Positions 52,226 to 60,751 of a DNA stretch of 64,000 bases are shown here, piece after piece. Each line of letters starts with the position of its first letter. Within the stretch, counting starts at the first letter, position 1. A model generated the notes under the pieces. It was not told the origin of the DNA and made no database searches. It was given only the letters and a program-made list of their open reading frames with translations. Both the position numbers and the translations under genes were made by a program. Origin of the DNA: Polytrichum commune (Eukaryota; Streptophyta; Polytrichopsida; Polytrichales; Polytrichaceae); the NCBI GenBank assembly GCA_950295325.1, contig OX485806.1, positions 310,001-374,000 of the forward strand. Direction: 5' to 3'.

Positions 52226-60751
<8,526 letters not shown>

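Follow-up and report, generated by a model that had tools for sequence, protein, structure and literature searches.

An 8-nt segment on the minus strand of the Polytrichum commune genome, GTGATGAG, is very probably a real microexon that supplies part of the ATP-binding motif of a chromatin-remodeling enzyme. With a probability of roughly 0.9, we regard it as a coding microexon that is normally included in the transcripts of an apparently single gene for an ALC1/CHD1L-type remodeler. The octamer lies at 59446..59453 of the window, the 64,000-nt stretch of DNA that we analyzed (C4:310001-374000 in a 408-Mb assembly of 64 contigs). No other segment was found that puts the frame right and at the same time supplies the conserved Gly-Asp-Glu (GDE) ahead of Walker A, and the octamer is flanked by a good acceptor on one side and a good donor on the other.

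An octamer within a split ATP-binding motif

The coding part of exon 1 (214 nt; 60538..60751, minus strand) ends in phase 1 at 60538, where it opens a glycine codon (ATT CTG G|gtaaac). The octamer, exon 2 of the gene model, reads cag|GTGATGAG|gt from 59453 to 59446 on the minus strand, with tgattttcag as the 5' flank and gtgtgcacct as the 3' flank; it contributes the last two bases of the glycine codon, followed by the Asp and Glu codons of ILGDEMGLGKT. Exon 3 (59130..59208, minus strand) opens at 59208, directly after a cag, with ATGGGGTTGGGGAAGACT, which encodes MGLGKT, the motif that we take to be Walker A, or motif I. The introns on either side of the octamer are both of the gt..ag type, intron 1 being 1084 nt (59454..60537) and intron 2 being 237 nt (59209..59445) long, both on the minus strand, so that at the level of sequence the segment has the properties of a plant coding microexon (1-15 nt, internal, and flanked by two GT-AG introns). 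The 20-base pattern made up of CAG, the octamer, and GTGTGCACC occurs a single time in the whole genome. The initial annotation had placed the octamer in the correct interval with no strand given, and its central proposal, that an 8-nt microexon restores the frame and provides GDE ahead of MGLGKT, is seen both in the sequence and in the 18-exon model.

Chance expectation was assessed in the 1329-nt interval between exons 1 and 3, with dinucleotide shuffles as the null. The pattern AG-G-N-GAY-GAR-GT occurs once in this interval and once in the whole window, both strands included; among 2000 shuffles of the interval, 2 produced this exact GDE pattern. A looser definition of the microexon (2-29 nt in steps of 3, a GT or GC donor, and D or E followed by E, Q, D, or N before MGLGKT) proved unselective, with hits in 265 of 500 shuffles; in the real interval, it admits three further candidates (ILEQ, ILGEMPEN, and ILEMPEN before MGLGKT), none of which yields GDE. 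Because the looser search is unselective, the strength of the case rests on the gap-free match of GDE to the ortholog and on the ranks of the splice sites.

These ranks derive from a matrix with a small base, only 15 introns, all of them other introns of the same hand-made gene model, applied to positions 60560-59180. With this matrix, the microexon acceptor ranks first and the exon 3 acceptor second among 83 acceptors, and the microexon donor ranks sixth among 94 donors (score 6.77). The donor of exon 1 ranks 29th of 94; its score, 2.48, is lower than that of any of the 15 training donors (minimum 2.75), and this weakness makes it the point at which the model convinces least.

The host gene and its genomic context

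The coding region (52009..60751, minus strand) was assembled manually into an 18-exon model on the basis of open frames and GT-AG sites, with a presumed ATG start codon at 60751, and encodes 897 residues without internal stops. The predicted product comprises an SNF2 ATPase and helicase C, and its C-terminus can be aligned with the part of CHD1L that we take to be the macro domain of ALC1 (residues 652-896 with CHD1L residues 622-863; i-Evalue 1.4e-31). Pfam recognizes PF00176 (SNF2-related) and PF00271 (Helicase_C) in the 897-residue protein; no macro-domain model was matched at E 0.001. The best match among solved structures is human CHD1L (7otq; E 2.1e-167), followed by the ISW1 family (1.2e-121), and ILGDEMGLGKT aligns with human CHD1L without a gap. 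Judged by this comparison of E-values, the SNF2 ATPase and helicase C are closest to CHD1L, and the gene is a remodeler of the ALC1/CHD1L type. The identification as CHR10 made in the initial annotation agrees with this result, and the label is apt because AtCHR10 (AT2G44980) is assigned to the ALC1 subfamily in a table within the available part of PMC9820626.

Of the model's 17 introns, intron 1 is the longest; two branch-site candidates, recognized by motif only, lie 35 nt (TTGAC) and 50 nt (TTCAT) before its end. The last 60 nt of intron 2 hold three GGG triplets, more than in any other intron of the model, although over the whole intron the density of GGG (1.27 per 100 nt) is unremarkable. 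Two of these triplets fall within a telomere-like TTTAGGGTTTAGGG (59269-59256, minus strand), which is followed, near exon 3, by TTTAAGGG. A second TTTAGGGTTTAGGG is present on the minus strand at 30308-30321; TTTAGGG repeats are of the plant telomere type.

A search of the genome with the first 308 residues of the protein returned 40 matches, six of them inside the CHR10 gene itself (76-97% identical), and no second close copy of the gene was found among the 40. Because the other 34 matches are only 30-52% identical, the gene appears to be single-copy. Motif I was read at 31 loci, namely 30 of the 40 matches (10 fall outside this count) and the locus of the octamer pattern; seven of these belong to the CHR10 gene, three lack motif I, and the remaining 21 correspond to 14 other SNF2 places. 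At all 14, the motif is uninterrupted in one frame, so that, among the loci read, it is split only in the CHR10 gene. The Asp-Glu pair, which had been called invariant, is present in most of these places (DEMGLGKT), but two have DQMGLGKT and two have DDMGLGKT. For one SNF2 paralog, the best solved relative is the plant remodeler DDM1 (E 1.3e-19; next family 1.5e-14); like the TTTAGGG repeats, this points to a plant genome.

Elsewhere in the window, an open frame of 301 codons at 16059-16961 (plus strand) matches CDC50/LEM3 (PF03381, E 7.6e-91), another at 47538-48170 (minus strand) contains a hAT transposase dimerization domain (PF05699, E 7.3e-8), and a third at 24359-25111 (minus strand), with a partial NAD-dependent epimerase domain (PF01370, E 1.5e-12), may be a single exon of a larger gene. 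A tandem repeat with a period of 172 is present in two copies at 8922-9263. Scans of the window yielded no Rfam match, no tRNA, and no tandem repeat bearing on the microexon.

Splicing of the octamer and alternative readings

Borrowing the order of splicing from other genes (that of many plant microexons), intron 2 would be removed first, joining the microexon and exon 3 into an 87-nt exon, and the long intron 1, with its weak donor, would be removed later. Failed splicing is predicted to introduce premature stops and presumably leaves no functional enzyme. In the gene model, translation stops after 111 residues when the microexon is skipped, after 90 residues when intron 1 is retained, and after 83 residues when intron 2 is retained; the skipped product contains no Pfam domain at E 0.001.

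The prediction that skipping shifts the frame before Walker A is therefore confirmed in the model, whereas the accompanying idea that inclusion might serve as an on/off switch is unsupported. Under such a scheme, tissue, stress, or DNA damage would control inclusion, so that ALC1 would be switched on or off by way of frameshift and decay. The truncated products expected from skipping or from retention of either intron and the weak donor of exon 1 are compatible with this scheme, as is the 16-fold increase of a Physcomitrella ALC1-like gene upon bleomycin treatment, which concerns transcript level rather than splicing (available part of PMC4990234). However, the same picture is expected of any frame-breaking constitutive exon, and truncation is therefore no evidence of regulation. 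Furthermore, most plant coding microexons are included in the major isoform, and an alternative-exon role is argued against in the accessible portion of PMC8831610; according to the part of PMC4990234 available, growth and gene targeting were apparently not compromised in a Physcomitrella ALC1 knockout. Regulated switching thus appears unlikely, and the 8-nt exon is probably constitutive. It is similarly improbable, if anything slightly more so, that the 8-nt exon acts, through its splicing, as a rate-limiting gate on the plant's only ALC1 remodeler, with transcripts held in the nucleus by intron 1 and its weak donor and set free, once splicing is complete, upon DNA damage or during development.

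A transcript without any microexon, in which exon 1 is joined directly to exon 3 through an extended acceptor, for example from 60537 to 59249, is very unlikely. Altogether, 57 direct joins are open (28 with GT donors, the rest with GC donors), and VNVIL is kept in five, the 60537-59249 join and four others with other donors; in none of the 57, with either type of donor, is MGLGKT preceded by an acidic pair or by DQ or EQ. The 60537-59249 join would place 13 residues between ILG and MGLGKT in lieu of the conserved GDE, its acceptor (tttagggtttaag|ggaggc) lacks a long pyrimidine tract and is absent from the eight top-scoring acceptors, and the gap-free match to CHD1L would have to be a coincidence. 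A recursive-splice site, at which joining of exon 1 to the microexon would regenerate a donor (TGG|GTGATG) and the microexon would be removed in a second step, is hardly credible: the microexon does begin with GT, so that GTGATG directly follows the acceptor (cag|GT), but such a GT would arise without selection wherever a GGT glycine codon is split after its first base, and the regenerated donor is not a strong competing 5' splice site, its low score (-0.17 vs. 6.77 for the microexon's own donor) arguing against recursive splicing.

Relation to known microexons and remodelers

The available part of Yu et al. 2022 (PMC8831610) describes 2398 microexons in ten plants, grouped into 45 conserved clusters, with 35 clusters common to flowering plants and moss; the same 45-cluster scheme is employed in the accessible portions of MEPDB (PMC12409088) and of the Zygnema genome paper (PMC11096116). 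The characterization of very short exons as rare in the initial annotation is correct, yet in land plants such exons form a conserved class that is well established, with one of the 45 clusters located in SNF2_N. According to the same part of Yu et al., inclusion exceeds 0.5 for most coding microexons, the introns upstream of plant microexons tend to be removed late, and intron retention is commoner in plants than skipping. G-rich and U-rich motifs are also described there as enriched beside plant microexons, although the G-rich end of intron 2, in one gene, proves nothing about such motifs. The share of microexons that are annotated ranges from 17 to 78% across the ten species (PMC8831610, available part), and it is plausible that automatic annotation would miss the octamer. 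A factor named GRP20 promotes micro-exon retention in Arabidopsis flowers (PMC10808074, consulted through its main text, in which the word CHR10 is absent).

The nearest match to the CHR10 microexon in the literature is Cluster 16, a conserved microexon encoding part of SNF2_N (PMC8831610, available part). Clusters 5 (4 nt, phase 2), 7 (5 nt, phase 1), 18 (8 nt, phase 1), and 28 (12 nt, phase 0), as given in that part of the source, suggest that the cluster numbers follow size and phase; if so, Cluster 16 would measure 5-8 nt, a range that accommodates the 8 nt and phase 1 of the CHR10 microexon. Quite probably, Cluster 16 is the CHR10 octamer exon, judging by its domain and the size range deduced from its number. 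In almost every land plant, Cluster 16 is reported with two gene-structure variants (PMC8831610, same part), as would be expected if the tag also picked up uninterrupted SNF2 paralogs, such as the 14 places found here; alternatively, Cluster 16 could be another SNF2 gene. A search of the literature, mostly outside full texts, returned no description of this microexon in CHR10/ALC1. In AT2G44980, a predicted 30-bp intron, number 10, was found to be nonexistent (PMC6161759, available part); this intron would fall outside the microexon region.

The class of microexons is therefore already known, and the CHR10 octamer is one more well-anchored case, which Cluster 16 may already include. If the octamer is left out of the gene model, the frame is lost immediately upstream of Walker A; annotation of this gene, which encodes a remodeler with relatives active in DNA repair, thus needs microexon-aware tools. 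Should inclusion be incomplete in RNA, the gene would offer a clean way to test if plant microexons gate expression; failing that, it would stand as a further well-anchored example of an established class.

Like the conserved land-plant microexons, Cluster 16 in particular, the CHR10 octamer is an internal coding exon of no more than 15 nt, is not a multiple of 3, and lies in an SNF2 domain. The 9-nt microexons of plant invertase and AP2 genes are likewise tiny, form part of a conserved motif, and are frequently missed by annotation (PMC8831610, available part). However, 9 nt is a multiple of 3, so that the frame is kept when these exons are skipped, whereas skipping of the octamer breaks it. 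The microexons of animal neurons are also very short and require intronic signals, but their length is mostly a multiple of 3 and they tend to be regulated (PMC8831610, available part), whereas the CHR10 microexon, of 8 nt, is probably constitutive. As to the enzyme itself, ALC1/CHD1L (AtCHR10, OsCHR711) is the best solved-structure match over the ATPase and the C-terminal part of the CHR10 protein, and the single ALC1 member here parallels the one member each in Arabidopsis, rice, and barley (PMC9820626, available part). Nothing unusual was noticed in the CHR10 protein relative to ALC1/CHD1L; the unusual feature is the split motif.
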